Positions 11,155-43,192 of a DNA stretch of 64,000 nucleotides are shown in pieces. The stretch is from Pirellulales bacterium (lineage in GTDB: Bacteria > Planctomycetota > Planctomycetia > Pirellulales > JAEUIK01). The notes beneath the pieces were generated by a model. It did not search any database, had not been told where the DNA came from, and saw nothing but the letters and a program-made list of their open reading frames with translations. Numbering within the stretch: the first letter of the stretch is position 1; every line of letters starts with the position of its first letter. The DNA lies in the NCBI GenBank assembly GCA_019745975.1, contig JAIESQ010000013.1:1-64000 (forward strand), in the 5' to 3' direction. The translations under genes and the position numbers were made by a program.

Positions 11155-11271
11155 ACTCGTGCCAGTCACAAGCACACGACCGCGGATCGACAAAGCTTGC
11201 CGCGCCGAGCCCAAGGAGTAAAACATGGCTGGCGAGCAGGTTGGAGTCGGGCAACGCACGGAGGCCTCCGC

Positions 11272-13293
11272 ATGGCGCGCGACAAAAGTCGGCAGCGAAA
11301 ACTCGAGCGAAAGGCCAAGAAGGCCGCGAAGCGACGCCAGCGGGTGCGCCAAGACGCCGCCAAAGCCAACTTGTCCTTAGGCGCTGCCCGCGGCCTGGAC
11401 GAAGCCGACGAGTTGCTCAACCGGGGCGAGTACGATCAGGCCGTCGAAGTGCTCGAGGAGCTGGGGCGACGCTATCCGCGTCGCCTGGAGATTCTATCTC
11501 GCCTGGCCGAGACATATTTCCGAACCAACAACCAGTGGTCGTATCAGGCGACCTGCGCACGACTGGTTGTCGTCGATCCTGACGAGCCGATGTCGTGGCT
11601 AGTGCTGGGTTCGGCGGCCCTAGGGAATGGCCAGGCCGCCACTGCCCAGCGGGCGTTTGCGCACTTGGCGGCCACCTGGCCCGATCATCCCGAGTCGGTC
11701 CAAGCGCGGCAGATGCAGGAATCGCTCCGCGAGTTTCTCGCGGACGAGTGTCGGCGACGCGGACTGGATGAAGAATCCGGAGTTCGCGTTCTGCTACTGC
11801 ACGACGAGGTCAATCTGCAATTGCACCTCGGAAATTACGACAAGACTTGCGACGCGGCGGCGCGACTGCTGACCATTTGCCCGACCTTTGCGCCCGCGCT
11901 GAATAATCGCAGCGAGGCGCATTTTCGCTCGGCCCGCTACGGTGAAGCGATCACCGATTGCCAGCGGGTGCTTCAATTCGATTCGACGAACTACCAGGCC
12001 CTGGCCAACTTGACGCGCTATCTGTATCTGTCCGGGCGTTTCGACGAAGCGCAAACGGCCGCGGCGGCGCTCAAAGCGTGTGAAGCGGACGAGCCCGATG
12101 CATTTCTCAAAAAAGCCGAGGCTTTTGCGCTCCGCGGCGACTGGGAAGCCGTCCGTCAGGCTGTGCGCGATGGCCAAAGCGTCTGGTCCGAATCGGGCGG
12201 AACGCCGGGGCTCGCCGAGCACCTGGCCGCCGTCGCGTCCGCCAACCTGGGCGATCTAGACGCGGCCCGCGAACACTGGCGCAGGGCCAAGGGATTCGCG
12301 TGGGCGAGTGCGAACCTCGAAGACTCGCAGCGGCCCGGCGGCAGCCGGCACGGTCCGTGGGCCTTTCCGCTCGAAAGCTGGTTGCCGCGCGGCGTGATCG
12401 CCGGGCTCGTCGAAACCATGGCGCCAACGCGCCGCGCGGCCGACGTGACGCGACTCGTCCGGCGGCATTTCGAGCGGTATCCACAAGTGGAGTTGTTAGC
12501 CGATCTCCTGCTGCAACGCAGCGACCCTAGCGCCTGCGAACTGCTGATTCGCCTGGCTCCGCTTGTTAAACGTCCCGCCATTTTCGCCGCGCTTAAATCG
12601 TTCGCGCTCGGAGAGCGGGGGAGCGACGAACTGCGGATGCAAACGCTGGTGGTGCTAACACAGGCGGGGCACGTCGAGGGCGAGGTTCAGGTCTGGCGCG
12701 AGGGAAAACCAGGTCCCATGCTGCTCATGTCGCAAGAGATCTTCCGCGAGCCGACCGTCAGCTTGCCGCCCGAGATCAACGATCTCATGGTCTCGGCCTA
12801 CGAGACCTTGCGCCAAGGCCGCGCCGCCGAAGCCGAGCGGCTCTTCGACAAAATCTTGCGATTGCGTCCCGACGACGTCTCGGTGCAATACAACCGAGCC
12901 GTCGCGCTGGGCCTCCAAGGTCGCAAACAGGAAGCTTTGGAGATCATCCGCCGGGTCCATCGCGATCAGCCCGATTACGTGTTCGCTCGCACGCACCTGG
13001 CCGACGAGTGCATCGCCGCCGGCGACCTGGAGGGGGCCAAATCGCTGCTGGCCCCCATCGCCCAAAAACGGCGGCTTCACGCCAGCGAGTACGCCGCGTG
13101 GTGCAGCGCGAACATCAACCTCGCGCTGGCGATGTGCGATCCCAAGGCGGCCAAAAGTTTCCTCAGCGCATGGGAGCAAGTCGATCCCGACGACGATCGG
13201 ATCGAGATCTGGAAAGAGCGCGTCCAAGGCGGGAGCGGTCTGCTCGAACGCTTGAAATTCCACCTGGGAATGTTAAGCGGCGACGCGAGATAG
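11272..13293 (+). CDS. Tetratricopeptide-repeat protein
   Basis: The 673-residue protein starts with a very basic segment (ARDKSRQRKLERKAKKAAKR) and continues as tandem helix pairs with TPR-like spacing. Clear examples are LLNRGEYDQAVEVLEELGRRYP, given here as LLNRGEYDQAVEVL near residue 50, and AYETLRQGRAAEAERLFDKI near 520. There is no signal peptide, so it should be cytoplasmic. TPR arrays act as protein-binding scaffolds; the partner is unknown. GGAGG precedes the ATG at 11272, and the frame upstream to 11197 does not look coding. Confidence 0.75.
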   Translation: MARDKSRQRKLERKAKKAAKRRQRVRQDAAKANLSLGAARGLDEADELLNRGEYDQAVEVLEELGRRYPRRLEILSRLAETYFRTNNQWSYQATCARLVVVDPDEPMSWLVLGSAALGNGQAATAQRAFAHLAATWPDHPESVQARQMQESLREFLADECRRRGLDEESGVRVLLLHDEVNLQLHLGNYDKTCDAAARLLTICPTFAPALNNRSEAHFRSARYGEAITDCQRVLQFDSTNYQALANLTRYLYLSGRFDEAQTAAAALKACEADEPDAFLKKAEAFALRGDWEAVRQAVRDGQSVWSESGGTPGLAEHLAAVASANLGDLDAAREHWRRAKGFAWASANLEDSQRPGGSRHGPWAFPLESWLPRGVIAGLVETMAPTRRAADVTRLVRRHFERYPQVELLADLLLQRSDPSACELLIRLAPLVKRPAIFAALKSFALGERGSDELRMQTLVVLTQAGHVEGEVQVWREGKPGPMLLMSQEIFREPTVSLPPEINDLMVSAYETLRQGRAAEAERLFDKILRLRPDDVSVQYNRAVALGLQGRKQEALEIIRRVHRDQPDYVFARTHLADECIAAGDLEGAKSLLAPIAQKRRLHASEYAAWCSANINLALAMCDPKAAKSFLSAWEQVDPDDDRIEIWKERVQGGSGLLERLKFHLGMLSGDAR

Positions 13294-13389
13294 TCGCCAC
13301 TTTGGTAGGCGACCCGACGACGGTGCGCTCGGCGGCAGCCGCGCAATTCGAAGCCGCCGTTACACCGGCTGCTGTGGAGATTGTCCAAG

Positions 13390-13428
13390 TGGAGGCGGCG
13401 GGAATCGAACCCGGACGACGGTTTCTCT
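13390..13428 (-). ncRNA. ssrA: tmRNA-like 3' end fragment, probable attachment-site remnant
   Basis: Read on the minus strand, this is GTCCGGGTTCGATTCCCGC followed by CGCCTCCA: a T-arm with the TTCGATT loop and the 3' acceptor strand. This ending is typical of tmRNA. The rest of the molecule is absent, because the sequence that should hold it (beyond 13430) is unrelated repeat A. The 3' end of ssrA is a frequent target of tyrosine recombinases, so this is probably an att core left by insertion or excision. A tRNA-Ser 3' fragment is the main alternative. Confidence 0.55.
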
Positions 13429-13431
13429 AAC

Positions 13432-13617
13432 CGATTCAATGGCCACGAGTTGCAGTCAGTGCAACAGGCGGGAGCAGCGCCTGAGCATCGCGCGAGCGTC
13501 ACTTGCGGTCACTGCTTGGCATCAACTGGCTCGCTGAACTCGTCGTTGCCGCCGTCAGTGTCTCGCATCGCCGACGCTTGGCTGGCTCTTCCTCCTCACA
13601 TTCGGGAGGCGATAATC
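13432..13617 (+). repeat. Direct repeat A (left boundary of 15.5-kb module)
   Basis: About 185 bp match the segment at 28912-29100 in the same orientation, at roughly 80% identity by eye. The longest shared blocks are around GCAGCGCCTGAGCATCG and CGAGCGTCACTTGCGGTCAC. It starts directly after the tmRNA-like fragment. The matching reading frames suggest remnants of one ancestral coding end (see the pseudogene entry). Confidence 0.75.
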
Positions 13618-13869
13618 ACGCTTGTCGACGCTGCCTTGCCGGTCGGCTGCGAAGGAGAATCGCCCACATTCGTGATCTCATCGACAAATGGGAATTGCGG
13701 CGAATGCCACCGAGGTGCAAACGACGCTGCTGCATGGCGGATCGCCCAAGACTGCCGGAGAATCATTCAAAGCTGCCTGCGTGAGGAAGAGTGGGCGGCT
13801 GCGGACCGGGAGTTTTTCGGGATTATCGCGGCGGCGTTGCGACTTCCGAGCCCATCCGGACTGCCATGA
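13437..13869 (+). pseudogene. Coding remnant resembling the tail of planctomycete integrases
   Basis: A plus-strand frame reads ...SVSRIADAWLALPPHIREA, then IITLVDAALP, then CRRIIQSCLREEEWAAADREFF before stopping at 13869. An LPPHIREAI-LTLV-type segment is, from memory, typical of the sequence trailing planctomycete tyrosine recombinase genes. The recombinase body with its catalytic Arg/His/Tyr is absent; upstream the frame runs into the tmRNA-like fragment and is not coding. In repeat B the same frame is broken by a stop. I read this as the leftover end of an integrase-linked gene, but the family link is not verified. Confidence 0.4.
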
Positions 13870-17504: not shown

Positions 17505-19793
17505 ATGAAAAAGCTGGTCGAAGGATTGAAGCATTTTCAGGACCACATGTTGTGGGAAAGGCGTGAGCAGTTCGAACGTAGCACGGTTGGCCAAAAGCCG
17601 TACGCTTTGCTGATCACGTGTTCTGACTCGCGCGTCTTGCCGGAGATGCTGATGCAGGCCGATCCCGGCGACTTGTTCGTTTCCCGCAACGCCGGCAACC
17701 TCGTTCCCCCTTCAGATGCTCCTAGCGGAGAAGCAGCTACCATCGAGTACGCCGTTACAGCGCTCGGTGTGACAGACATCATCATCTGTGGGCACTACCG
17801 CTGCGGCGCCGTCAAGGCGATCCTGCATCCCGAAGAAGCCATCGGATTGACCAAGACGCAGGAATGGCTTGCTCACGCCGCTGAAACGAGAGCTCTCATC
17901 CAGCAGGAGCATCCCGACCTTGAGGGGGAAGCACTCTGGGATAAGGCGGTCGAGCGAAACGCGCTATTGCAAGTGAGCCATCTATCAAAGCATCCGGTAG
18001 TTGCCTCGGCGCTCGCCGCGGGGAAGGTCCGCTTGCACGCCTGGGTTTTGCGGTTCGAGACGAGCGACGTCTTGGCCTACGATCCGCTGGCGAATGCCTT
18101 TACACCACTGGTGGAGATGCCCACGATCCGCGGCGTATTGCCCTCCCCAGAGATGTCCACAGAAGCTGTGCACATCGCAACCCCAGACGCTGCTTTGGTT
18201 CCGGCCCGCCCCAAGTGGTCCGAATCGCTTAGGAACGATCTGCCTGCCTCTCTGGTGGTATTTGCCGTGGCACTGCCATTGTGCGTTGCCATCGCCAAAG
18301 CATGTGGAGTTCCCACGGCTGCGGGCATTATTACGGCAGTCATCGGCGGTGTTGTCGCCGGACTGCTGGGTGGCGGTCCATTGCAGGTGAGTGGTCCGAC
18401 TGCTGGCTTGATCGTGGTTCTGCTTGGTATCAGCGACCAGCTAGGACTGGCATCGCTGGGAGTGGTGGTTTTTCTGGCTGGACTTATTCAGATCGCTGCC
18501 GGTTTACTCCGTTTGGGCCAATGGTTTCGGGCCGTGTCACCGGCGGTGATCCTGGGCATGCTAGCCGGTATCGGCGCCATGCTGTTCGCCCAGCAGTTCC
18601 ATGTCGCCGTCGATGACGCTCCCTCTCGCTCACCGCTGATGAACCTCGTCGGCATTCCCCAATCCTTCTTAGATATCTTCGACGGACATCATGGTCACCC
18701 AGAACATTTACCAGCGGCTCTAATCGGAATGCTGACGCTCGGCATTCTTCTATTATGGAATCCGCTTCGTCCAAAGCGGCTGAAGGCAATTCCAGGCGTG
18801 CTCGTCGCCGTCGTGACGGCGACCGTCGTGACGTTTGTACTCCGGTTGCCCATTCAGCGGGTGGAATTCGAAAGCCTTGCGTCCGGGGTAACAGCCTTCA
18901 ACATTGCGGCCCTGCCAAGCCTGTTCGCCGATCGCCTAGTCTGGCAGTTGGCAGTGACCGTCGCGATCGTGGCCAGCGCCGAAACGCTCTTAACCGCGGC
19001 TGCGGTAGACCAGATGCATACGGGACCACGGACTCGATTTGACCGGGAGCTAGCGGCACAGGGCATCGGGAACGCGCTGTGCGGGCTGCTAGGCGCATTG
19101 CCAATGGCAAGCGTAATCGTCCGCAGTTCCACTAATGTCCAGGCCGGCGCGAAGACTCGCTGGGCAACGGTCCTGCATGGTTTGTGGATGCTAGCCTTCG
19201 TGCTGCTAGCGCCGGGATTGCTGCGACTGATGCCCACGGCAGCCCTGGCGGCGGTGTTGGTTCTCACGGGCGTGAAGCTGATCGAGGTGCAGGCGATCCG
19301 CGATTTATGGCGGGAAAGCCGGGTTGAGGGCATGATCTGCATCCTTACCGCCATCACAGTCCTGTCGGTCAACCTTCTCGCAGGAGTACTGCTTGGCGTG
19401 GGTCTGTCTGTACTCAAGCTGATCCACACGTTCTCGCAGTTGCATATCCACCAGCTCGGCGCCTCGGCAAACGGTCGAACAACGCTGGTGTTGGAAGGTT
19501 CCGCGACGTTCATTCGCCTACCAAAATTGGCGGCGGCGCTGGAGAGGGTGCCCGTCGGGACGGCCCTGCATATTGACCTCAAAGGAGTGAGCTATATCGA
19601 CCACGCCTGCTTGACGCTACTGATGAGCTGGGAAAAGCAGCACGAAGCGACAGGGGGCACCCTGGTGCTGGATTGGGAGACATTGCGCGCAAGGTTTCAG
19701 GATGCGCGCCCGCGTCCGCGAAGTTTGCGTAACACGCATAAAGAGGCCGTGCTCGCGAGCGGCGGTGACCATGAACGACGGCGAGCCGCGTAA
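17505..19793 (+). CDS. Beta-carbonic anhydrase fused to SulP anion transporter (CA first)
   Basis: The 762-residue protein joins two functions. Residues 1-200 form a beta-carbonic anhydrase with zinc ligands Cys39, His97 and Cys100 (CSDSR and GHYRCGAV) and the Asp41/Arg43 dyad, so CO2/bicarbonate conversion is expected. Residues about 235-640 are a SulP transporter with many membrane helices and motifs such as VALPLCVAIA and QVSGPTAG, and a STAS domain lies at the C-terminus (about 650-735). SulP members carry sulfate or bicarbonate; the fusion strongly favours bicarbonate, as with BicA. The second fusion at 20874 has the reverse order. Confidence 0.88.
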   Translation: MKKLVEGLKHFQDHMLWERREQFERSTVGQKPYALLITCSDSRVLPEMLMQADPGDLFVSRNAGNLVPPSDAPSGEAATIEYAVTALGVTDIIICGHYRCGAVKAILHPEEAIGLTKTQEWLAHAAETRALIQQEHPDLEGEALWDKAVERNALLQVSHLSKHPVVASALAAGKVRLHAWVLRFETSDVLAYDPLANAFTPLVEMPTIRGVLPSPEMSTEAVHIATPDAALVPARPKWSESLRNDLPASLVVFAVALPLCVAIAKACGVPTAAGIITAVIGGVVAGLLGGGPLQVSGPTAGLIVVLLGISDQLGLASLGVVVFLAGLIQIAAGLLRLGQWFRAVSPAVILGMLAGIGAMLFAQQFHVAVDDAPSRSPLMNLVGIPQSFLDIFDGHHGHPEHLPAALIGMLTLGILLLWNPLRPKRLKAIPGVLVAVVTATVVTFVLRLPIQRVEFESLASGVTAFNIAALPSLFADRLVWQLAVTVAIVASAETLLTAAAVDQMHTGPRTRFDRELAAQGIGNALCGLLGALPMASVIVRSSTNVQAGAKTRWATVLHGLWMLAFVLLAPGLLRLMPTAALAAVLVLTGVKLIEVQAIRDLWRESRVEGMICILTAITVLSVNLLAGVLLGVGLSVLKLIHTFSQLHIHQLGASANGRTTLVLEGSATFIRLPKLAAALERVPVGTALHIDLKGVSYIDHACLTLLMSWEKQHEATGGTLVLDWETLRARFQDARPRPRSLRNTHKEAVLASGGDHERRRAA

Positions 19794-20873: not shown

Positions 20874-23135
20874 ATGAAACCCAGTCGCCCTTCAGCATCG
20901 ACAATATCGCGTGATCTCACGGCCGGCTTGGTGGTATTCCTGGTCGCGCTGCCTTTGTGCCTGGGAATCGCGCTTGCGTCGGGCGCGCCGCTGTTCTCCG
21001 GACTGATCTCCGGAATAATCGGCGGTATCCTGGTCGGCGCGATCAGTGGCTCTCGGGTCAGCGTCAGCGGCCCTGGAAACACGCTCATGGTGATTGTCGC
21101 AACACAGATTGCGACGCTGGGATCGTTCGAAGCATTCTTGCTGGCGCTGTTATTCGCTGGCGTCATCCAGATCGCGCTGGGGTTGGCGCGACTGGGGTTC
21201 TTGGCCGCGTATTTCCCGTCGAGCGTCATCAAGGGACTACTGGCAGCTATCGGCATCATTTTGGTGATGAAGCAGATCCCTCACCTGCTCGGGCACAGCG
21301 CGGACCCACAAGGCGACATGGCATTTCAGCAACACGATCACGCCAATACGTTCAGCGAACTTATTCACATGGTCGATCATATTCATCCTACCGCGGTCGT
21401 CATTGGACTCACATCGCTCGCCTTGCTCTATTGCTGGGCACGCTTCAAGCCACTCAGACAGTTCCCAGTACCGGCACCGCTTGTTGTTGTGATCTTCGGA
21501 ATGGGTATGGGTTTATTGTTTAGACAACTCGGTGGAACTTGGTCACTTGAGTCAAGCAACTTCGTGCAGGTGCCCAAACCCGATAACCTTTCGGGGCTAT
21601 TGGAATTCGTGCAGACGCCCGACTTTTCCCAATGGCGCAATCCTGCATTGTACATGGCAAGCTTGACCATTGCGGCGGTGGCTTCACTGGAGACGCTGCT
21701 CAACCTGGAGGCAATCGACAAGCTTGATCCGCAGCAACATACCTCTCCCCCGAGTCGGGAATTATTGGCCCAAGGCATTGGCAATGTCGCAGCCGGATTG
21801 CTTGGCGGAATCCCAATCACAGCCGCAATCGTCCGCAGTTCCGTGAATGTCAACGCGGGCGGCAGAACCAAGCTGGCTACCATTGCTCATGGTGCCCTTC
21901 TGCTGGCGAGCATCGCATTCATTCCCACATGGCTCAATCAGATCCCGTTGTCTTGTCTGGCTGCCATCCTGCTTGTTACCGGTGTCAGGCTCGCCAGCCC
22001 GACCTTGTTGCGCCAAATGTGGAACGAGGGGCGGATGCAGTTCGTTCCGTTCGCATTGACCGTAACCGCGATCATTTTCACCGACTTACTCGTAGGCGTC
22101 TTGATCGGGCTGTCGGTGAGCCTCGGATTCATTTTGCATAGCAACTTCCGCCGCCCGATCCGCCGCTTTGTGGAAAAGCACTTGGGCGGCGACGTGTTGC
22201 ACATCGAACTGGCCAATCAGGTCAGTTTTCTGAATCGAGCCGCTCTTTGGAAAGTCCTGGATGCCGTTCCGCGTGGCGGACAAGTTCTGCTTAACGCACA
22301 GAGCACCGACTACATCGACCCGGATGTGCTGGACCTATTGCGCGATTTTGACGAGAAGACTGCCCCGGCGCGCGGCGTCAAGGTCAGTCTTGTCGGGTTC
22401 CGAAACAAGTACGATTTCCGTGACAGAACGCAATACGTGGACTACTCCACGCGCGATCTTCAGAGCCAACTCACACCGCAACAAGTGCTGCAGATCTTGA
22501 AGGAGGGCCACGAACGCTTCCGCACGGGCCAGCGTCTAACCCGCGACCTCGGTCGCCAGGTCGATGCCACGGCCGGTGGACAGCATCCCCTGGCCGTGGT
22601 CCTGAGTTGCATCGACTCCCGCGCGCCCGCCGAACTGATTTTCGATTTAGGGTTGGGCGACATTTTTAGCGTCCGCATTGCCGGAAACGTCATCTGCCGC
22701 GAGGTCGTGGGCAGCATGGAGTATGCATGCGCCGTGGCCGGGGCAAAGCTGATCCTCGTCATGGGGCACACGCGTTGCGGTGCCGTGACCGCCGCCGTCG
22801 ATCTCGCCTGCTCGGCAGAACCCACGGCCCATGCCACAGGCTGCCATGACCTGGAGCCCATCGTTCGTTTCATTCAACAATCGATTGACCCGCAAACGTG
22901 CCAGCGCGTCCGACAATTGTCGAATTCCCAAAAGGAAGCGTTCGTCAACGCAGTGGCGCGCGGCAATGTGTGCCGCGTGGTCGAAACAATTCTCCAGCAA
23001 AGCCAAATGCTCCACAAGCTCCACGATGAGGGCCGGGTTGCGATCATTGGCGCAATCTACGATGTCGTTACTGGGGAGATCGAATTTCTTCCGCATGCGG
23101 ATGCGTGCGTGGGAGACATTGGGACCGGAACCTGA
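20874..23135 (+). CDS. SulP anion transporter fused to beta-carbonic anhydrase (CA last)
   Basis: In this 753-residue protein the SulP transporter comes first (residues about 10-425, with VALPLCLGIALASGAPL and SVSGPGN), then a STAS domain (about 440-510), then a beta-carbonic anhydrase (about 535-750). The anhydrase zinc ligands are Cys579, His632 and Cys635 (CIDSR, GHTRCGAV) with Asp581/Arg583. A bicarbonate or other anion carrier working together with CO2 hydration at the inner membrane face is expected. It has the same two functions as the gene at 17505 in the opposite order, so they arose by separate fusions or domain shuffling. The MgtC gene follows after 57 bp. Confidence 0.88.
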   Translation: MKPSRPSASTISRDLTAGLVVFLVALPLCLGIALASGAPLFSGLISGIIGGILVGAISGSRVSVSGPGNTLMVIVATQIATLGSFEAFLLALLFAGVIQIALGLARLGFLAAYFPSSVIKGLLAAIGIILVMKQIPHLLGHSADPQGDMAFQQHDHANTFSELIHMVDHIHPTAVVIGLTSLALLYCWARFKPLRQFPVPAPLVVVIFGMGMGLLFRQLGGTWSLESSNFVQVPKPDNLSGLLEFVQTPDFSQWRNPALYMASLTIAAVASLETLLNLEAIDKLDPQQHTSPPSRELLAQGIGNVAAGLLGGIPITAAIVRSSVNVNAGGRTKLATIAHGALLLASIAFIPTWLNQIPLSCLAAILLVTGVRLASPTLLRQMWNEGRMQFVPFALTVTAIIFTDLLVGVLIGLSVSLGFILHSNFRRPIRRFVEKHLGGDVLHIELANQVSFLNRAALWKVLDAVPRGGQVLLNAQSTDYIDPDVLDLLRDFDEKTAPARGVKVSLVGFRNKYDFRDRTQYVDYSTRDLQSQLTPQQVLQILKEGHERFRTGQRLTRDLGRQVDATAGGQHPLAVVLSCIDSRAPAELIFDLGLGDIFSVRIAGNVICREVVGSMEYACAVAGAKLILVMGHTRCGAVTAAVDLACSAEPTAHATGCHDLEPIVRFIQQSIDPQTCQRVRQLSNSQKEAFVNAVARGNVCRVVETILQQSQMLHKLHDEGRVAIIGAIYDVVTGEIEFLPHADACVGDIGTGT

Positions 23136-28814: not shown

Positions 28815-28911
28815 AGATATCGGGCATGACGTGTCCCTGCGAATTGCAACGGGCGACCTTTTCCGCCGGCTCCGGACTGCGGCCCGGCGTTCGCCGTATC
28901 GTCTGGCGGAA

Positions 28912-29100
28912 ACCAATTCAATTGCCACGAGATGCAGTCAGTGCAAGAAGCGGGTGCAGCGCCTGAGCATCGCGCGAGCGTCACTTGCGGTCACTGCCTG
29001 GCGTCGACTGGCTCGCTGACCTAGTCGTTGCCGCAGTCCGTGTCTCGCATTTGCCATAGCCTGGCCGGCGCTTCTGCCTCACAGTCGGGAGGCTATTCTG
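28912..29100 (+). repeat. Direct repeat B (right boundary of 15.5-kb module)
   Basis: This is the second copy of the ~185-bp repeat at 13432-13617, in the same orientation. The coding-like frame of copy A is interrupted here (LASTGSLT then stop). No tmRNA-like fragment is attached to this copy. The pair brackets the nine genes from 14947 to 28814. Confidence 0.75.
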
Positions 29101-29222
29101 ACACGGGTCGTCGTGGAAAATGAACTTCGCGGCAAGTGATGCTCCCCGTCATTCGCTTTATTGCTCAGTTCGTGGCGTAATGGCCGGCTGGTGTCGCGTG
29201 GGTAAGTGAGAACGATCGACTC

Positions 29223-31035: not shown

Positions 31036-32697
31036 TCAGGGAAGGATTCTTAGTGCAACGACCGTATTGAGTCGCAGCGCGGTGCGGCGATGGCGGATCA
31101 AGGCATCTCGATATTGTCTGACGACTTCGCTATACTCACGCTGCGCATTGAGGTAGCCGATCGCCCCCTCCTCGCCGGCCTTGAATAGCTCAAACGTCCT
31201 GTCGCGTATTGAACGCGCCCGTGGTAGAACGGTGCGTTCGAGCCGCTGCACTGTCCCAAGCGAGGTTTCAAAGTCTCTAAACGCACCTCGCACTTCAGTG
31301 TCGATTTGTCGTTGTATTCCTGCCAACTCAATCGTTGTCTGTGACGCGTTGATTTCTGCTCGACGGATGTTGCCCTGGTTCCTGTTGAATAGCGGCACGC
31401 TTGCCATCACGCCGAGGCTCCACGAGGTCGCGTCTTGGCCACCCGTGGGCGTGTTGTTCCGGTAACCGAATGGCGTGTACAATACGAAAACATCAGGGAA
31501 CGCCTCCGCGCGCGCGAGGCTTACGTCCGCTTGGGCACGCTGAATTCCTAAGCGATAGGCCATAAGGTCTGGACGGTTCGCTTGAGCCAATCCGATGAGT
31601 TCTTCCAGCGGTGCGATGTTATCGGCTGAAGTGATGATCCGACCTCGCACAGCAAGTTGATCTCCTTCGATCGCAGGAATGTTTAGTCGGGCTGCTAGGA
31701 TCTGGTTGGTCTTTGACAAGGATGCCTTGGCTTCGTCTAAGGCGATCAGTGCGGAGTCTTGCTGAACGGTGAGGCGGTCAAGTTCAATTCCCGATCGTTC
31801 TTGACCTCGAAGCTGTTGCTTGGCGACGGTTTGTGCCTCGTTCAGTCCTGTCAGGCTGGCTTCCAGATACCGAACCGCTTCCCGTGCTGCAAGCACGTCC
31901 ACGAACGCCGTATAGAGATTGTCGATCTCAAGCCGGACTGCATCTTGATATTGAGCATCAAGCACGCGTTTGGCTCGCTGAGCGGAGAGAACCCGTACGC
32001 CACGCTTGTGGTTCACATCAAAAGGCTGAATCACTGTGATGCCGTATCCATTCTCGCCAGGCCTTTGCGGTGAGTAACTGCCGTAGGGCACGTCGTCGGC
32101 ACTGGCAAAAACTAGTGGGTTCCCTCGCAGCCCGGCCGAAAGGATATCTGCCTGAGCTTTTGGGATCTCCTGGAATTTTGTCCGCAAATCAAAATTTTCG
32201 CGCCTGAGCCGCTCGATCGCCATGTCGAGGGTTAATCCATCAGACGGTCCTTCCTCGTCTTGGCGAGGAATCTCCAAAGATCCGTAGAGCGGCAACTCAG
32301 AGGCCGAAAGCTTCGGTGGCGGCGCGATGATCGGTTCAGGAGCGCCGAAGGGCTGTCCACCAGCAGGAGCTGACGCTGCGGAAAGTACGTCACGACGAGC
32401 CATCCCCGTGCCGGCGATCCGTTCGCCCAACCTAGGTTCGCCACTTCCCGGGACGATCCCAAAGCGGCTCTGACCGGCGCCGGGGGTGTTGCCCAAGTGC
32501 GATGTTGTCCGTCCGCTCTCCTGCTCGCGCACTCCCTTGGTGATGACGATAATGTCTTCAGCAAGCTGAGCTTGTGCGTCCGCCCGCCGCTGCGCACCGA
32601 AGAGGAGCACTGAGAAGGTTAAGGCGACAAGGAGGGATCGTAAGCGGATCCTTGCCAATAAATACGCGACTTCGGCGCATGGAATGATGTCTCGCAT
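31036..32697 (-). CDS. TolC/CzcC-family outer-membrane efflux protein
   Basis: The 553-residue protein has a signal peptide (hydrophobic residues about 18-40) and a Pro/Gly-rich stretch to about residue 150. The rest has the two-repeat helical pattern of TolC-type channels: LTLDMAIERLRRENFDLR, given from the first repeat, and a second repeat containing SLGVMASVPLFNRNQGNIRRA, here cited as VPLFNRNQGNIRRA. VPLFxRNQGxI is characteristic of CzcC. It is likely the outer-membrane exit for the efflux systems encoded next to it and lies 98 bp after the P-type ATPase gene on the same strand. Confidence 0.85.
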   Translation of the reverse strand: MRDIIPCAEVAYLLARIRLRSLLVALTFSVLLFGAQRRADAQAQLAEDIIVITKGVREQESGRTTSHLGNTPGAGQSRFGIVPGSGEPRLGERIAGTGMARRDVLSAASAPAGGQPFGAPEPIIAPPPKLSASELPLYGSLEIPRQDEEGPSDGLTLDMAIERLRRENFDLRTKFQEIPKAQADILSAGLRGNPLVFASADDVPYGSYSPQRPGENGYGITVIQPFDVNHKRGVRVLSAQRAKRVLDAQYQDAVRLEIDNLYTAFVDVLAAREAVRYLEASLTGLNEAQTVAKQQLRGQERSGIELDRLTVQQDSALIALDEAKASLSKTNQILAARLNIPAIEGDQLAVRGRIITSADNIAPLEELIGLAQANRPDLMAYRLGIQRAQADVSLARAEAFPDVFVLYTPFGYRNNTPTGGQDATSWSLGVMASVPLFNRNQGNIRRAEINASQTTIELAGIQRQIDTEVRGAFRDFETSLGTVQRLERTVLPRARSIRDRTFELFKAGEEGAIGYLNAQREYSEVVRQYRDALIRHRRTALRLNTVVALRILP

Positions 32698-32735
32698 GAG
32701 AACCTCCCTGTTCGCATGTATTGTTTCTTCTGAGA

Positions 32736-32755
32736 CAACCGCGTACGAGCGGTTA
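32736..32755. other. Small hairpin between P-type ATPase and tolC-like genes
   Basis: AACCGC (32737-32742) and GCGGTT (32749-32754) are complementary with a 6-nt gap. No T-run is present, so attenuation or transcript processing is more likely than intrinsic termination. Function not shown. Confidence 0.3.
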
Positions 32756-32795
32756 ACTCTGACGGACCGTCTTTTCCGACGAGTCTATTTCCCTT

Positions 32796-34934
32796 TCAAC
32801 TGCGCAACATGCGCAGCCCACTTGCGATCACAATGAACTCGCTGAGCTCGTGTCCCACGACGGCGACGGGCAACGAGAAGACCCCGGCGACTGCCCCCAC
32901 AACCAATACCCCGATAACAACCATGGAAAGTGCGAGGTTCTGGTTGACAACGGACTGGGTGCGTCGAGCCAGTCGTAGCGCGTAAACGAGCTTCTCCAAA
33001 TCGTCGGCCATCAAGGCGACATCCGCCGTCTCTAGTGCTACGTCCGTCCCGGCCGTCCCCATCGCGATGCCGACCGTCGCCTCGGCAAGGGCTGGCGCGT
33101 CGTTTACTCCATCCCCAACCATGGCGACGTGCCCGTACTTTTGGGCGAGCTCTCGCACCTTCACTACCTTGTCCTCTGGCTTCAGATCCGCGTAGACCTG
33201 GTCGATGCCGAGCTCGCGGGCGATAGTCTGAGCCGTGCGTAGGTTGTCCCCGGTCAACATGGCCACGGTCTGCACGCCAACTGTGTGCAATGCATCAATG
33301 GCCTTCCGTGCATTGGGACGGACATTGTCACGGAGAGCGAGCACGCCCCAAACACGTTCATCATCACCGAGAAGCACAGCCGTTTTGCCTTCGTCCTGTA
33401 GCCGGTCAATCTCGTCACGGATACGGTCCAAGTTGACGCGGAGTTGCTTCTCAAAGAAATCTGGCTTCCCGATAAAGATACTCCGATCCTGGAAGCGGCC
33501 GGATGCGCCCGCACCAGTCATCGCCCGAAACTCGGTGATATCAACCGGTGCAACGGACTTCGTTTGAGCGTGGCGAAGAATGGCGCGGGCTAGCGGGTGC
33601 TCGCTGTACCGCTCGACGCCTGCTGCCAGAGCTAGTAGTTGTTCCGGCGATTCGACGTCAGCGCGTCCATCGGCGCAAGCCAGTATGTCTGTCACCTCCG
33701 GTTCACCACGCGTCAGCGTGCCGGTCTTGTCTAGAGCAACGGTCTTAATCTTCGCCAACTCTTCCAGGTACATCCCCCCTTTGATGAGCACGCCTTGGCG
33801 CGCCCCCGTCCCTAGAGCTGCCACCAGAGTGATTGGGACTGAAATAACCAATGCGCAGGGCGCTGCCGCTACGATAAACACGGTGGCACGTGTGAGAGAC
33901 GTTACCCAGTCGGTGCCAAAAACGAGCGGGAGTACGACGGCCAACAAAATACCAATAAGCAGAACGCCGGGGCTGTAGCGCGTGCCAAAGCGCTCAATGA
34001 ACCTCTGGCTCTTCCCTTTGCGCTCCTGCGCTTCCTCAACCATTTCGATGATCCGAGAGACCGTGTTCTCCGCAAAGGTCTTCGTTGCCTTGACCTCTAA
34101 GACGCCTTCACCGTTAATTGTCCCGGCAAAGACGGTATCGCCGGGCTGCTTCTCGACCGGCACGCTCTCGCCGGTGATCGGCGCTTGGTTCACCCCAGAA
34201 CTACCGACTAACACGAGGCCGTCGGTCGCCACGGACTGTCCGGGACGGACAATGAACACATCGCCAAGCACGATTTCCTCGACCGGGATCTCCAATTCGA
34301 GTCCCTCTCGCTTCACGAGCGCGTGCTTCGGCGTAAGATCCATGAGAGCCTTAATTGCCGAGCGGGTCTTTTCCTCGGTATACCCCTCAGCCGCCTCGGA
34401 AATGGAGTACAGGAAGGCCAACATCGCACCTTCGGCTGCCTGGCCCATCGAGGCCGAGACAATTGCAGCCGTACTCATCAAGAATTCGATACCGACCCGA
34501 CGTTCGAATATCAGTTCTTCGATGGCCTCTCGTCCGAAGAAGTAGCCGCCGAGGAGGATTGCCGCAATATAGGTGGCTGTCGAAACCGATTCGGATGCGC
34601 CGGCCAGGCCAAACAGCCATCCAAGTAGAAGCAAAAGCCCTGACGCTGCAGACGCGATTACCTTGGGATTGCGCCAGGGTCTGGGTCGGGCCGCCATCCC
34701 AATTCCCTTTTGCGGTGGGAAACCAAGCGAATCGAGCTTTTCATTAAGCCTTTCAACCGAAGTCGTCGCCGGGTCATAAGTCAGGAACACTTTGGCGGAA
34801 TTAGGCAGAACCTTCACTTCGCCTAGACCGGTGACGCCGGACAAGGCGCGCTTCAGCGCCGCGACATCGTGGTCGCAATCCAAGTTTCCGACTCGCACCT
34901 CGTACGTTTGAAGGACACTGTCACTTGTCACCAT
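32796..34934 (-). CDS. P1B-type ATPase with unusual APC metal motif
   Basis: The 712-residue pump has the P-type core: TGESV, Asp402 in DKTGT, SEHPLA and GDGVNDAPA. In the metal-site helix the usual CPC/SPC/TPC is replaced by Ala358-Pro359-Cys360 (AAAPCALV), and the last helix reads GHELSEF rather than HEGxT. The N-terminal HMA domain has CDHD in place of CxxC (GNLDCDHDV). These features separate it from the well-known P1B-1 to P1B-5 groups, so the metal cannot be predicted by motif. The ATG is 2 nt after the PaaK-like stop, so the two are co-translated. Confidence 0.85.
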   Translation of the reverse strand: MVTSDSVLQTYEVRVGNLDCDHDVAALKRALSGVTGLGEVKVLPNSAKVFLTYDPATTSVERLNEKLDSLGFPPQKGIGMAARPRPWRNPKVIASAASGLLLLLGWLFGLAGASESVSTATYIAAILLGGYFFGREAIEELIFERRVGIEFLMSTAAIVSASMGQAAEGAMLAFLYSISEAAEGYTEEKTRSAIKALMDLTPKHALVKREGLELEIPVEEIVLGDVFIVRPGQSVATDGLVLVGSSGVNQAPITGESVPVEKQPGDTVFAGTINGEGVLEVKATKTFAENTVSRIIEMVEEAQERKGKSQRFIERFGTRYSPGVLLIGILLAVVLPLVFGTDWVTSLTRATVFIVAAAPCALVISVPITLVAALGTGARQGVLIKGGMYLEELAKIKTVALDKTGTLTRGEPEVTDILACADGRADVESPEQLLALAAGVERYSEHPLARAILRHAQTKSVAPVDITEFRAMTGAGASGRFQDRSIFIGKPDFFEKQLRVNLDRIRDEIDRLQDEGKTAVLLGDDERVWGVLALRDNVRPNARKAIDALHTVGVQTVAMLTGDNLRTAQTIARELGIDQVYADLKPEDKVVKVRELAQKYGHVAMVGDGVNDAPALAEATVGIAMGTAGTDVALETADVALMADDLEKLVYALRLARRTQSVVNQNLALSMVVIGVLVVGAVAGVFSLPVAVVGHELSEFIVIASGLRMLRS

Positions 34935-34936
34935 AG

Positions 34937-36313
34937 CTAAGCCCCCTCCATGGGGATGACTTGCCGATGATCTCCGAACCCGGAACGTCGGTCGACAATC
35001 TTGAAGGCTTTGATCTGCGATCCCAACGATACGCCAATTTGAATATCGAGCAAGATATTTCCGTTAGAGATGTTGGTTGAAAACTCCGGGTACGCGACAA
35101 ACAGCGCCCCGCGCACGGCGTCCTCGTTTACGTCCTTTCCCTCGACGCGCAGGACCACACGATCTGCGGCTTCCACTCTGTCCAATTCGATTGTGATTCG
35201 TCCGGTTGCGCCTGTGACTCGCTCAACTGCGGCGGCGACCACATTGGCGTACAAGTTCATGTCGCCTGCCACAAACATGTCGTCCGTGCGACCCGTGAGT
35301 TGAATTGCCTGGAAGGGCAGTCCACAAGGGCACAGTGACCAGCGACCGCGATCGCCGGACCGATATCGCAACAGGGGCATCGCCTCCCGCAGCAACGTGG
35401 TGAAGACCAACTCGCCCTCGTCAGTAGATTGTCCTGTGTCAGGATCGATAATCTCCGTGACGAGGTGCATGTCGTTCAAGTTGAATGCTGTGCACTCCGG
35501 CAAGGCGAGGGTCTGTCCTCCGCCGATCTCCGTAGAGCCGTAGCTGTCCAACACCTCAGTATTCCAGTACTCTTGGAACAGCGATCGGCGATCGGGCGTT
35601 ACCGTTTCGCCTCCGAGAAGTACGCGCTCCAGCCGAGGCCGGTATCCCTCTCGCTCCGCTTGTCGGGTAATTGCGGCAAGGTAGGAGCAGGAGGAGATGA
35701 CCACGTTCGGCGAGAATCGCCTCATCCAGGCAACGGCCTCCACTGGGTCGTCCGCTCCGACCGGCAATGGCAGGCCGCCAGCCCGCTCCACGACGCGCTG
35801 CGCGGTCGCCGAGCCGATCCAAAAACCGTGACTCATCGGTAGCGCGAGAAGCGCGACCAGCCGACCGGGCTGCCCGAAGCGGAGCGCGAACGCAGCAAAG
35901 TTCGTCATTGCGTTCAGCTCCCGCGACGTAAAATAAACTCGTTTCGGTTCACCGGTCGTACCGGATGTCGTGAAAACGGCTGACACGTCATCTTCTGGAA
36001 CGCAGAGAAATTGCTGCCAATTGCGAATATCGGCCGCGGTAGTGAACGGCAGGTGACGCAGGTCGGCTATCGTGCGAATATCACGCGGATGAAGGCCAGT
36101 CTGTGAGAAGTGGGAACGATAGTAGGGGGATCGTTGATACGCATACGAGATCGTTCGCCGCATCCTGCGGTTCTGAACGGCTCGCAACACCTTGGGTGCC
36201 ATGCCATTTCTGCGGAACCGCTGTGCAAAATAAGCGATCTGTCGGACCCGTTGCGGACGGTGGGTGTACAGCTCGAAGGCGCGCGTCGTCAAATCAACGG
36301 CAATAGCTAGCAT
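34937..36313 (-). CDS. PaaK-like adenylate-forming enzyme
   Basis: The 458-residue protein belongs to the ANL superfamily. The phosphate-binding loop is TTSGTTGEPKRVYF and the adenine-side motif is SYGSTEIGGG, followed by YRSGDRG and a GRTDDM hinge. Overall layout resembles phenylacetate-CoA ligase (PaaK), which activates a carboxylate with ATP. Neither phenylacetate degradation genes nor a carrier protein is nearby; instead it sits between a ferredoxin and a metal ATPase, 2 bp from the latter. The substrate is therefore unknown. The ATG at 36313 replaces a longer upstream frame that does not fit the family. Confidence 0.8.
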   Translation of the reverse strand: MLAIAVDLTTRAFELYTHRPQRVRQIAYFAQRFRRNGMAPKVLRAVQNRRMRRTISYAYQRSPYYRSHFSQTGLHPRDIRTIADLRHLPFTTAADIRNWQQFLCVPEDDVSAVFTTSGTTGEPKRVYFTSRELNAMTNFAAFALRFGQPGRLVALLALPMSHGFWIGSATAQRVVERAGGLPLPVGADDPVEAVAWMRRFSPNVVISSCSYLAAITRQAEREGYRPRLERVLLGGETVTPDRRSLFQEYWNTEVLDSYGSTEIGGGQTLALPECTAFNLNDMHLVTEIIDPDTGQSTDEGELVFTTLLREAMPLLRYRSGDRGRWSLCPCGLPFQAIQLTGRTDDMFVAGDMNLYANVVAAAVERVTGATGRITIELDRVEAADRVVLRVEGKDVNEDAVRGALFVAYPEFSTNISNGNILLDIQIGVSLGSQIKAFKIVDRRSGFGDHRQVIPMEGA

Positions 36314-36350
36314 CGGGCCACCCACTTCCTGAAGTCCTGATAACGGCTCC

Positions 36351-36647
36351 TCATTTCCGGCGGTTGCACAGCGGGCCCTCCAAGGGTGGCCTTTGCTCGG
36401 TAATGCTGGGGCACTTTGGTGCCATCTCGGCATTGAGGGCAATGAAGTCCTTCCATTCTTCCGGCACGTCATCCTCCTGATAGATTGCCTCTACCGGACA
36501 TTCGGGCACGCACGCTTCGCAATCGATGCACTCGTCTGGCTGGATATACAACAGTTGCTCGCCTTCGTAGAAGCATTCCACCGGACAAACGACGACACAG
36601 TTCGTGTACTTGCAGTCAAAACACGGCTGACAGACAACGTGGGTCAT
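36351..36647 (-). CDS. Ferredoxin with [3Fe-4S]/[4Fe-4S]-type cysteines (FdxA-like)
   Basis: The 98-residue protein has Cys at 6, 9, 12, 17, 21 and 25 (CFDCKYTNCVVVCPV) and a second set at 40, 43, 46 and 50 (CIDCEACVPECPV). The pattern and the THVV...C start match seven-iron FdxA-type ferredoxins, which carry electrons at low potential. It heads the operon containing the PaaK-like enzyme and the APC-type ATPase. A redox step in that pathway is implied but unknown. Confidence 0.88.
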   Translation of the reverse strand: MTHVVCQPCFDCKYTNCVVVCPVECFYEGEQLLYIQPDECIDCEACVPECPVEAIYQEDDVPEEWKDFIALNAEMAPKCPSITEQRPPLEGPLCNRRK

Positions 36648-36723
36648 AGCTTCGACCCTCCTTCATGAGTTCAACTGCTGATGCAGCACCTGCCGCCAGC
36701 ATTGCTACCATCTCACACCACGA

Positions 36724-36957
36724 CTAAGTTGCCCGCCGATCCGCCGTGCCATCGATCATGAAGCCGATTCCTGCCAGCGCCCATATGAGTCCATCGCTGA
36801 AGTAGTGCTGTTCGCTGGCACCGAGGAGCGAGCCTCCGTTCCACATCGCCAAGGTAGCGCCGACGATCTCAAGAAGGGCCATCACGAGGAGCACGCGTCC
36901 CAAGATAATTCGAATGTTCCGAGGTCGCCTCGAATTGGAGACAGTCGCCTGATTCAT
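36724..36957 (-). CDS. Small membrane protein
   Basis: The 77-residue protein starts at an ATG preceded by AAAGGA. After a basic start (RRPRNIRII) two hydrophobic segments (about 22-40 and 55-70) predict two membrane helices. It is upstream of the ferredoxin operon on the same strand. No family is recognised. Confidence 0.55.
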   Translation of the reverse strand: MNQATVSNSRRPRNIRIILGRVLLVMALLEIVGATLAMWNGGSLLGASEQHYFSDGLIWALAGIGFMIDGTADRRAT

Positions 36958-37060
36958 GGCACGGTCCTTTCGTTCGTTATTGTGGTCCTGCCCGCACCGT
37001 GCGAGCAAAATGTGCTGTCACCGAGTCGCCCTATCGATCCGCTGACTCATGGTTGCCACA

Positions 37061-37261
37061 CTAGGCCGCTTCGCGCGGTCTTCGCCCTTGCTTCAGTCCA
37101 ATTCCAAACTCTTTCGCGAACTTCAGGAGAGTGGCAGCGCAGATCGAATTCGATAGCATCTCGCGCGTTCTACTGGCACCGTGCCGTTGAATCAGTTCCG
37201 CCAGCCGTTTACGCTCCGCAAACTTGTAAGTCAGAGGGCGCCCGCGTCTTTTTCGTGGCAT
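37061..37261 (-). CDS. Small basic protein, possible HTH
   Basis: The 66-residue protein is rich in Arg/Lys (MPRKRRGRPLTYKFAERK). The middle, ELIQRHGASRTREMLSNS, has the spacing of a helix-turn-helix. It may be a small DNA-binding protein of the efflux region, but no known family is matched. An upstream GGACGGA could serve as a weak ribosome site. Confidence 0.45.
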   Translation of the reverse strand: MPRKRRGRPLTYKFAERKRLAELIQRHGASRTREMLSNSICAATLLKFAKEFGIGLKQGRRPREAA

Positions 37262-37385
37262 ATTCTGTCCGTCCTAATTCAACCAGGTTTGCGTAATGGC
37301 TGCATCCGCGTGCCCTTTGGGACTTCGACTTGGTTTTGTCAGTGCGAAAGTTCGTTGGGCACGATCTTATGCCGCTATCGGCCGC

Positions 37386-37730
37386 TTAGAACTTCGGCTT
37401 TGCCTCGAAGGTCCCATTTGGACCAGCTAACCGGATCGGTTGCTCACCACCATGTTCCACGGTCTCCCAAAGCTCTCGCGGCGAAAGCGCGCGGCCGCGA
37501 ACAGGATGGATCACGAACGTTTTTGACTCGACGTCCGCACGCACTTCAGCCACGCCGTCGAGTTTGCGAACTTTGTCCGCTATTTTCTTGGCGCACACTG
37601 GACACATCTTTTTCGTCGTTATTGTTGTCGCGGCGTTTGTCTCTGCCGCCCCAGCGGTCGAGCTAAAGCCAATCGCAACAGTCATAACAACGGCGACAAA
37701 CCATCGTCTCGAAAATTGCTGAGAATACAT
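37386..37730 (-). CDS. Periplasmic HMA-domain protein (MerP-like)
   Basis: The 114-residue protein has a signal peptide (residues 10-28, cleavage near AGAAE) and an HMA domain with Cys43/Cys46 in KMCPVCAKKI. The CxxC pair of HMA proteins binds Hg, Cu or Zn. The rest, VRKLDGVAEVRADVESKTF, matches the HMA beta-alpha-beta fold. It is the last gene of the RND efflux operon and likely hands metal to or buffers metal for the pump. Confidence 0.75.
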   Translation of the reverse strand: MYSQQFSRRWFVAVVMTVAIGFSSTAGAAETNAATTITTKKMCPVCAKKIADKVRKLDGVAEVRADVESKTFVIHPVRGRALSPRELWETVEHGGEQPIRLAGPNGTFEAKPKF

Positions 37731-37813
37731 TCTTGCACTCCTTTAGAAAGCAGAAGTAGTCCGAAAAAGGCCGCACGGGCTTTTGAACAATGAGGGACGT
37801 TTCGTCCGGACCC

Positions 37814-38170
37814 TCATTCCGTCCGCGCCGGCGGTTTCGTACCGAATTTGGCTTCATACTGAGCGGCGAATTTCGCTTCGAAGTCTGGGTGGCAAATGAA
37901 GCACTGTGACTCCGGCCGGTTGTGTTCTTTGCACCAGTCGCCCTTCTTCTGAAACTCGGCGGCCAGTTTCGTGCTGCATTGCGCACAACTCCCTTCCGGG
38001 ACGCCATGCTCGACGCACCACCATCCGCCGTGCTCTGGGGCCGCGACTTTCGTCGCTGCCGGGGCTCCAGCTTCGCCCTGTCCTGGCTGCGCCTGGCCGC
38101 AGCCGCCGACAAAAACCATCGCGGAGCCTAGCACCATTGCCAAACCAATCCACTTGATGTTTAAAGACAT
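37814..38170 (-). CDS. Lipoprotein with duplicated WCxEH...PE..C..C motif
   Basis: The 118-residue protein has a lipobox (VFVGGC, Cys24) and is anchored as a lipoprotein. The mature part contains two copies of a Cys/His motif, WCVEHGVPEGSCAQC and WCKEHNRPESQCFIC. The same motif occurs in the N-terminal part of the adaptor encoded at 41409-43052. Each copy offers three Cys and one His, so metal binding is likely. It probably passes metal to the adaptor/pump, much as CusF does in another system; this is inferred. Confidence 0.65.
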   Translation of the reverse strand: MSLNIKWIGLAMVLGSAMVFVGGCGQAQPGQGEAGAPAATKVAAPEHGGWWCVEHGVPEGSCAQCSTKLAAEFQKKGDWCKEHNRPESQCFICHPDFEAKFAAQYEAKFGTKPPARTE

Positions 38171-38200
38171 TGCTTCTCCTTTTGTGTTGTTCGCGCGAAC

Positions 38201-41200: not shown

Positions 41201-41392
41201 CTGCCGCTCGACTTCTTCCGGTGAGAGTGATGGAGCGATGGTGTTGATTTGTACCTGAACCGGCGTCGTGTCGGGAAACGCGTCGATATCCAAGTGTCGC
41301 AATGACACGGCGCCCGCGGCAGCAAACGCCAGGACCGCTAGGATTACCAGCGCGCGGTGGCGGAGCGAAAAATCGATGATCGAGTTGAGCAC
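38201..41392 (-). CDS. RND heavy-metal efflux pump (CzcA/CusA family)
   Basis: The 1063-residue protein has full RND length and layout: an N-terminal helix (LVILAVLAFAAAGAVSL), a large periplasmic loop, a six-helix group around 340-520, and a repeat of this in the second half. The proton-relay segment on the fourth helix reads DFGLVVDSSVVMVEN, typical of the heavy-metal subfamily. Proton-driven export of divalent or monovalent metal from periplasm or cytoplasm is expected. It lies 16 bp downstream of the adaptor gene. Motifs do not distinguish between Zn/Cd/Co and Cu/Ag export. Confidence 0.9.
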   Translation of the reverse strand: MLNSIIDFSLRHRALVILAVLAFAAAGAVSLRHLDIDAFPDTTPVQVQINTIAPSLSPEEVERQITFPVEQAISGLPGLEMLRSISKFGLSQVVVTFEDGIDIYFARQLINERLTTVVLPDGISRPQMGPVSTGLGEVFHYVLTYEGVDVSTLPEAKRIELLTNLRTTHDWVVKPQLRSVRGVAEVNSWGGYEKQYQVRIDPDRLIKYELTFDEVVEAVAANNRNVGGGTITEEKRLQLVHGVGRTVNAQQIENIVVTAKDGVPIRVRDVADVQVGHEIRRGTVTANGRGEAVLGLGFMLMGENSHDVTWALKNKLEEIKSTLPSGMQIQTVYDRTELIDHVIETVKKNLLEGGLLVVAVLFVFLGNLRAGLIVALAIPLSMLFAFSGMLQFGISASLLSLGAIDFGLVVDSSVVMVENCVRHIAHGDNRRRSMIDVVRDAAVEVRKPTMFGELIIMIVYLPILTLEGVEGKLFRPMALTVIFALAGSMVLSLTLMPVLASLLLPKKIEERDPLLIRILKRLYKPVLHFTMTHKVAVIAFAVGALVFAFGVIAPQLGSEFVPKLSEGAIVVNVVRLAGTDLEETNRYNTQMERTLLEKFPSEIAQVWSRVGTAEVATDPMGVELTDLFITLRPRGEWKRAETQDELTVSIQEELRALLGPRLAMTQPIEMRMNEMISGVRSEVAAILYGDDFDVLVKKASEIEGVLRSIDGAADVNTEQMTGQPVLQIHIKQDEIARYGIPAKTILTLVESLGSNHVGEVYEGQLRFPLVVRLPEKARANSDAIKSILVATPTGENIPLSRLATVETVEGPNTIKREWYQRRITVSANVRGRDMGTFVAEARRKVAEQVQLPTGRYRVEWGGQFENLARAQSRLMLVVPIALVMIFALLYMTYRNVVDSVRVFTGVPFAWIGGIVALWIRDMPFSISAAVGFIALSGVAVLDDMLLVSTIRQLRRLGRSLDQAVEEAAMTRLRPILMTTLVASLGFVPMAFSTGMGAEVQRPLATVVIGGVCSAMIMSLLVLRVLYMIFNLPIRSHDDVEAIEQTQDSFDIREESEIVSVRLP

Positions 41393-41408
41393 GGTCCGTC
41401 AAGCCTCC

Positions 41409-43052: not shown

Positions 43053-43192
43053 ACGTAAAGCTCCGAGGAAATAATCCAAGGTGTCGGCCGATCAGGCGTA
43101 CCAAAGGATTCTTAGGCCCAAAGAGAACTGCCGGGCTCACTTCACTGAGCGCGCAGCACCAACCGCAGAGGGTCAGTCGTGGGCGAGACGCT

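Follow-up and report, generated by a model that had tools for sequence, protein, structure and literature searches.

Several mobile elements are known in which the attachment (att) site lies within the gene for the integrase itself. In phage Mx8 attP is situated within int, and integration provides the gene with a new 3' end, the enzyme being altered and not inactivated (PMC6070905); as described in PMC4701971, 112 residues of Mx8 Int are replaced by 13 and its activity is lowered. The SSV-type 'suicidal' archaeal integrases, which contain PF16795, also have att inside int, where integration splits the gene and the intact version is lost; the same source calls self-disrupting recombinases exclusively archaeal (PMC8371274). 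A further example is provided by serine integrases of streptococcal ICEs residing in rumA: att again lies within the integrase gene, and the excised form has another length and C-terminus (PMC4701971). The tDNA islands collected by Islander and the Dehalococcoides ssrA islands are bounded by an intact tDNA and a displaced fragment of it, and can form tandem arrays (PMC4383910, PMC3146451). The Islander account names Mx8 and SSV alone as having integrases that extend across attP (PMC4383910). A literature search based on titles and opening lines, with most subscription journals outside its range, recovered no description of att-spanning integrases in planctomycetes.

The locus described here lies in the genome of a Pirellulales bacterium (G000 in our set), at the start of contig C203; the whole stretch of 64,000 nucleotides that was analysed is called the window, and positions beyond it are given with the contig name. 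With a probability of roughly 77%, we read window 13387-13413 as the distal att of a 92-kb mobilizable island at ssrA, whose attP core lies within int and whose insertion swaps the tail of the integrase. Integration of this kind is itself ordinary; the finding is that the integrase is split, that such splits are spread across the phylum and that the tail is a shared one.

13387-13413, minus strand: distal att copy, the displaced 3' terminus of ssrA (T-loop and acceptor strand, with 3 bases of flank)

These 27 bp form an exact direct repeat with C203:105672-105698, where ssrA has its 3' end; the two copies share contig, strand and orientation and are spaced by 92,285 bp. On the minus strand, 13399-13413 matches positions 348-362 of the Rfam tmRNA model with zero mismatches (13.6 bits; E 0.0021 in a search of 601 bases, and below the gathering score of 47). 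Nothing at the scar reaches the gathering score in the Rfam scan, and ARAGORN calls zero tRNA or tmRNA genes over the 64-kb window. A genome-wide search for the 27-mer (6.98 Mb, up to 3 mismatches) recovers 3 copies, with 0 for the reversed control pattern; the third, with one mismatch, is at C11:2233-2259. This recurrence exceeds chance. The one tmRNA match over the family cut-off in the 6.98-Mb, 204-contig genome is a full-length ssrA at C203:105672-106037 on the minus strand (162 bits, model positions 1-374), whose tag reads AEGSYALAA at the end of an ORF, as judged by eye. ARAGORN misses this gene (L001:1501-1866 in the extracted locus) despite its 162 bits with Rfam, and hence island finders relying on ARAGORN alone could miss such islands.

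Between the two repeats lies DNA of a different character, which the following features delimit and describe:

11197-13293, plus strand: TPR protein (Pfam TPR), the last gene left of the scar, belonging to the flank and not to the island
13414-64000, no strand: left part of the island, which continues to C203:105671 (G+C step, repeats at both ends)
49093-51732, plus strand: TrwC-type relaxase with helicase domains, a mobilization gene (PF08751, E 5.6e-68)
61463-62374, minus strand: ArdC-like protein (PF08401 and PF18818), antirestriction, typical of transferable DNA
C203:93556-94575: second tyrosine recombinase in the island (Pfam scan)
C203:101165-102682: type IV secretion system coupling protein (T4SS-DNA_transf, Pfam scan)

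To the left of the scar the G+C content is 0.642; between the repeats it falls to 0.588 (0.584 for 13387-64000), and beyond ssrA it is 0.638. Pfam was run on 38 of 63 island ORFs (the largest that do not overlap, each 150 aa or longer, and ORFs rather than gene calls). The scans additionally identify OEP, AcrB family and CusB/HlyD components of an efflux set, two P-type ATPases, HipA and transposition genes (IS66, IS21, IS91, DDE); no type IV secretion channel genes were seen in these 38. A TrwC relaxase together with a coupling protein is the hallmark of an integrative mobilizable element, and the island is best described as mobilizable. It also has the anatomy of a tDNA island, here at ssrA: an intact ssrA and a displaced fragment in the same orientation, int inside or overlapping the island, and a length within 2-200 kb. 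No excised form of the 92-kb island was seen, and a search of 53 other genomes with the TPR gene of the left flank, used as a probe for an empty site, gave no match (E up to 1e-10). With respect to cargo, the OEP, AcrB family and CusB/HlyD efflux set and a heavy-metal P-type ATPase are grouped at window 31036-43079 as possible metal-resistance genes, and two adjoining fusions of a sulfate-permease-family domain with carbonic anhydrase, in opposite domain order (17505-19793 and 20874-23135), may act in bicarbonate uptake.

The initial annotation, made from the window alone, had taken a tmRNA-type T-arm plus acceptor strand for an integration scar at the border between ordinary chromosome and accessory DNA, and its integration reading is supported. 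The tmRNA-type fragment is real, as seen in the exact T-arm match and the 27-mer shared with the 3' end of ssrA, and the border is borne out by the drop in G+C at the scar and its recovery past ssrA. Entry of the accessory DNA at the 3' end of ssrA agrees with the identical 27-bp cores and with a tyrosine recombinase gene that reads straight into ssrA. The fragment was drawn at 13390-13428: an att copy is indeed there, but the shared core is 13387-13413, and 13414-13428 is not ssrA, being the beginning of the element. The remainder of ssrA had been expected elsewhere, possibly at the other end of the island outside the window. The counterpart is found just so, on the contig and strand of the window copy at a distance of 92,285 bp, but it is a whole, regenerated ssrA and not a remainder; thus, the copy in the window is best taken for the original 3' end, now displaced. 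The covariance-model search and the search for further core copies that had been proposed return one full-length ssrA and a second exact 27-mer copy beyond 64 kb. Neither of the contrary outcomes, a better fit to a tRNA or an intact ssrA lacking att homology, was encountered: a tRNA origin of the scar is ruled out, with no tRNA called in the window and the identical 27-mer present in the genome's intact ssrA.

Absent from that annotation is the position of the core inside the reading frame of the integrase:

C203:104322-105737: int, a tyrosine recombinase (PF00589, 63.3 bits against a cut-off of 27.1)
13414-13869, plus strand: detached C-terminal integrase tail, 151 codons plus stop, sharing the frame that int uses across the core (ORF listed as 13381-13869)

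The int frame has 451 codons ahead of the core, reads the core as WRRRESNP, remains open through it and ends 12 codons later in antisense ssrA (RPETFPRQLLRV), the integrated copy having 471 aa. The Pfam integrase match covers residues 185-356 and is undivided in this copy. At the far end of the island the tail profile described below matches 13414-13644. A circle closed at the core is predicted to encode 451 + 8 + 151 = 610 residues, versus the 471 of the integrated form. As the core is inside int, insertion appears to swap the tail of the integrase.

Agreement in frame between the two separated parts was scored in ssrA elements with int at ssrA and a tail at another copy of the core. Int reads the core in the frame of the tail in 11 of 12 such pairs (permutation P 0.0003), namely G000, G004 (twice), G011, G047, G057, G061, G023, G067, G069 and G068, with G034 disagreeing; two doubtful pairs (G071 and C8 of G061) both disagree, and with them 11/14 agree (P 0.0007). 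All three frames are used. The same-contig pairs agree in 6/6 cases (G000, G004, G011, G047, G057, G061), which include the named isolates Aeoliella straminimaris and Botrimarina hoheduenensis, these six alone being modest evidence (permutation P 0.017; 0.0014 under equally likely frames). The other agreeing pairs are on different contigs, so that we infer their pairing. The integrase of G047, as judged by eye, is unlike the others and has the same split. Dropped before counting were G018, identical with G058 (with a decayed tail), G005, G006 and G076 (ssrA next to a contig edge and no int in view), G008 (another copy within tRNA-like sequence, by eye), G017, G045 and G066 (second copy without a recognised tail) and G072 (neither ssrA nor a recognised tail follows int, and a sense-orientation tail comes after ssrA); in G003, G025, G026 and G030 a copy of the pattern is present and full-length ssrA absent. 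The loci at G004:C7:11102-57344 and G004:C43 (L046, L047, L048) have int frames 2 and 1, each matched by the frame of its own tail, and are probably two ssrA islands in tandem.

Searching with a profile made from eight integrases of this kind gives 30 relatives in genome contigs, planctomycete by their record titles; these include loci of genomes already in our set (L065 = G018, L079 = G034), and L077 and L088 end alike, so that the 30 loci are not all independent. A T-loop motif, searched with an expression slightly looser than the strict one applied to tails, is inside the integrase ORF in 25 of the 30, after it in 1 and not found in 4. In 23 of those 25 it lies 83-115 codons downstream of the LARH motif, which is close to the catalytic tyrosine; the two earlier matches, at 40 and 58 codons (L071, L078), may be chance. 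ARAGORN calls a tmRNA at the end of int in 13/30 loci and a tRNA in 6/30. Relatives of the integrase in plasmid and phage records are distant only, with identities up to 27%, and three in IMG/VR all read into antisense ssrA and not into a tail, as judged by eye, i.e. they are integrated forms and not circles. Individual loci show variations on the arrangement: in L049 (G006:C29, core at 3081) an integrase like that of C11 reads the same core into tRNA-like sequence, at which ARAGORN calls no gene, instead of ssrA. The contig of L050 (G006:C91) stops right at the ssrA core, as would be seen had the assembler met more than one junction there. The int of L070 reads the T-arm in the sense direction, and L044 and G072:C82 have the tail after ssrA in the sense direction, which suggests mirror-image elements.

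Tails recur in many genomes. At E up to 0.01, a profile built from ten tails has matches in 29 of the 40 genomes of the group, counting the genome of the window itself. At E up to 0.001, it has matches in 17 of 20 genomes where related integrases occur and, with a small number of candidates scored in each genome, in 33 of 149 sampled from the whole phylum; phage records contain none at E up to 0.01. Seventy tail loci, 60 from the best profile matches and ten earlier ones, were scanned for an antisense T-loop motif from 300 bp ahead of the tail to 130 bp into it: 44 have it, 26 are without, and an equal stretch after the tail has it in 6/70. When the window is added to the 44 motif-bearing loci, the frame leading from the motif to the conserved block of the tail is open in 43 of 45, and the other two frames in 16 and 6; part of this openness is selected, as the best hits of the tail profile start close to the core. 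The stretch from core to conserved block has no ATG in 33/45 tails and no ATG, GTG or TTG in 14/45. A decayed second copy, resembling the tail at 13414-13600, is present within the island at window 28830-29137 (profile match 28911-29054, with an internal stop), and is perhaps a remnant of the end of another element.

Copies in which the parts are joined also exist. A single ORF with integrase, T-arm peptide and tail is found in L045 (C11 of the same genome, G000:C11) and in L069, and L138 and L145, which by eye resemble other integrase types, are unsplit at the integrase end, L138 being cut by a contig edge. The 3.5-kb contig of L045 also has AbiE-like ORFs (by eye), and one end repeats the other in inverted orientation, so the contig may have arisen in assembly; together with a damaged N-terminus this makes C11 weak evidence of a circle. 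The predicted structure of the C11 protein (mean pLDDT 74.0) has a recombinase core, a linker (345-427) below pLDDT 50 and a helical tail, and the PDB matches listed for the model are tyrosine recombinases, with the tail outside them.

The tail has no significant match in Pfam, NCBIfam, PHROGs or PDB sequences. A structure search with the predicted fold of the window tail, which is of low confidence (mean pLDDT 64.5), found nothing. The pN/pS ratio is 0.32-0.75 in tails (12 pairs of more than 50% identity, among 11 tails), 0.11-0.26 in catalytic parts (10 pairs) and 0.44-0.97 in linkers (10 pairs), the pairs not being independent. By these ratios the tail looks protein-coding and under less constraint than the catalytic part, and the linkers look weakly constrained. 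A hairpin with a T-run, on the strand of the target gene, within 150 nt of the core and inside the int ORF, is found in 15 of the 28 integrase loci scored (29 given), against 2/28 in a control stretch and 0.4 expected from base shuffles. In this island the terminator-like hairpin is at L001:1432-1453, shuffles giving 1.1 such sites per 901 bases scanned. The element hence seems to supply the 3' end of its target and often the terminator.

The repeat, the island, the intact ssrA, the continuity of the frame and the recurrence of the arrangement can all be read directly in the sequences, and from them we infer excision, the translation of both forms of int and any functional difference between these. 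In the mechanism we propose, the tyrosine recombinase would insert the 92-kb island into the 3' end of ssrA, the element bringing a replacement 3' end, followed some 50 bp farther on by a terminator-like hairpin, so that ssrA would stay whole while the original 3' end is displaced to the window. In the excised circle, int would run from the catalytic domain through a linker of ~95 residues and the core peptide WRRRESNP into the 151-residue tail, about 610 aa altogether. Insertion would cut it at the core, leaving the catalytic domain whole with a new 12-residue end from antisense ssrA and the tail at the far end; excision would restore the tail. The two forms are predicted to differ in activity or direction, the tail signaling whether the element is free or integrated. 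More tentatively, and at somewhat below even odds, we suggest that a portable C-terminal tail across attP is common to unlike planctomycete tyrosine integrases, and that, being stripped by integration and restored by excision, it might act as a built-in sensor or direction switch, i.e. a directionality factor in att. The same stretch would rebuild the target RNA gene and also, in about half of the cases tested, provide it with a terminator, the whole being a phylum-wide, independently evolved counterpart of Mx8.

Four other accounts have to be weighed against this. Least probable by far is an origin of the second 27-mer copy by local duplication or misassembly instead of integration: the genome is a draft of 204 contigs and the left flank finds no empty site in the 53 other genomes, but the repeat is exact and in the right strand and order, int reads into ssrA, the G+C steps between the copies, a relaxase and a coupling protein accompany them, and the arrangement recurs in other genomes. 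An ordinary ssrA island, with an int that ends near attP, a frame running on by chance in G+C-rich DNA and a tail ORF equally due to chance, is unlikely. In its favor, the evolution of linkers is nearly neutral in some pairs, and the antisense T-arm is open in all three frames; frame agreement in 11/14 pairs, the recurrence of the tail in 29/40 genomes, openness of the matching frame in 43/45 against 16 and 6, and the unsplit ORFs nevertheless argue for a genuine continuation. We consider it just as improbable that the tail is a separate small gene, or a dispersed planctomycete repeat near att sites, and no part of the integrase. The decayed copy at window 28911-29054 and the 26/70 tail loci lacking a T-arm motif would fit such an origin, but no ATG lies between core and conserved block in 33/45 tails (no ATG, GTG or TTG in 14), the tail frames match those of the integrases, and contiguous int-core-tail ORFs exist.

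A less remote, though still rather unlikely, account accepts the split and denies it a function, the tail being dispensable and both forms of the integrase acting alike. This is consistent with the undivided catalytic domain of the integrated copy and with the weaker constraint on tails than on catalytic parts. On the other hand, a pN/pS below 1 in 12/12 tail pairs of more than 50% identity and the recurrence of the tail with unlike integrases (G047, L138, L145) both suggest selection, and the corresponding swap in Mx8 is reported to change the enzyme (PMC6070905, PMC4701971).

On the favored reading, an island whose insertion splits its own integrase, an integration scar of a routine kind can be read as the record of an integrase changing its own protein upon integration. 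Should the pattern prove general, the ends of planctomycete islands could be mapped by orphan tails next to tRNA or tmRNA fragments, integrases with odd C-termini could be paired with small hypothetical ORFs, and the bias between integration and excision could be tested with two natural forms of one enzyme.

With regard to the described systems, the islands examined here share with those of Islander and Dehalococcoides the intact tDNA and displaced fragment as bounds and, probably, the tandem arrays, whereas the ssrA islands of Dehalococcoides, as their published description has it, use serine recombinases. The streptococcal ICEs in rumA differ in having a serine in place of a tyrosine recombinase and a protein gene in place of ssrA as target. 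Like the SSV-type integrases, the island has an att site inside an int gene which integration splits; unlike them, its int has only PF00589 above the cut-off and no PF16795, and its catalytic domain stays in one piece. A split planctomycete integrase bears on the statement in PMC8371274 that self-disrupting recombinases are exclusively archaeal. The closest likeness in design is with Mx8 Int, where attP is similarly in the gene of a tyrosine integrase whose C-terminus is exchanged on integration, here 151 residues by 12, as read from the reading frames only; by eye, a T-arm-like peptide, STGLEPV, also stands between the catalytic part and the tail of Mx8 Int. In contrast to this likeness, Mx8 Int has no significant similarity to the planctomycete integrases (0.7 bits) or tails (below 0 bits), and the case here is an island at ssrA, with tails that recur across many genomes at tRNA or tmRNA sites. 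Judged from sequence, the planctomycete system would work like phage Mx8 Int without detectable homology to it, with a corresponding effect on activity predicted.
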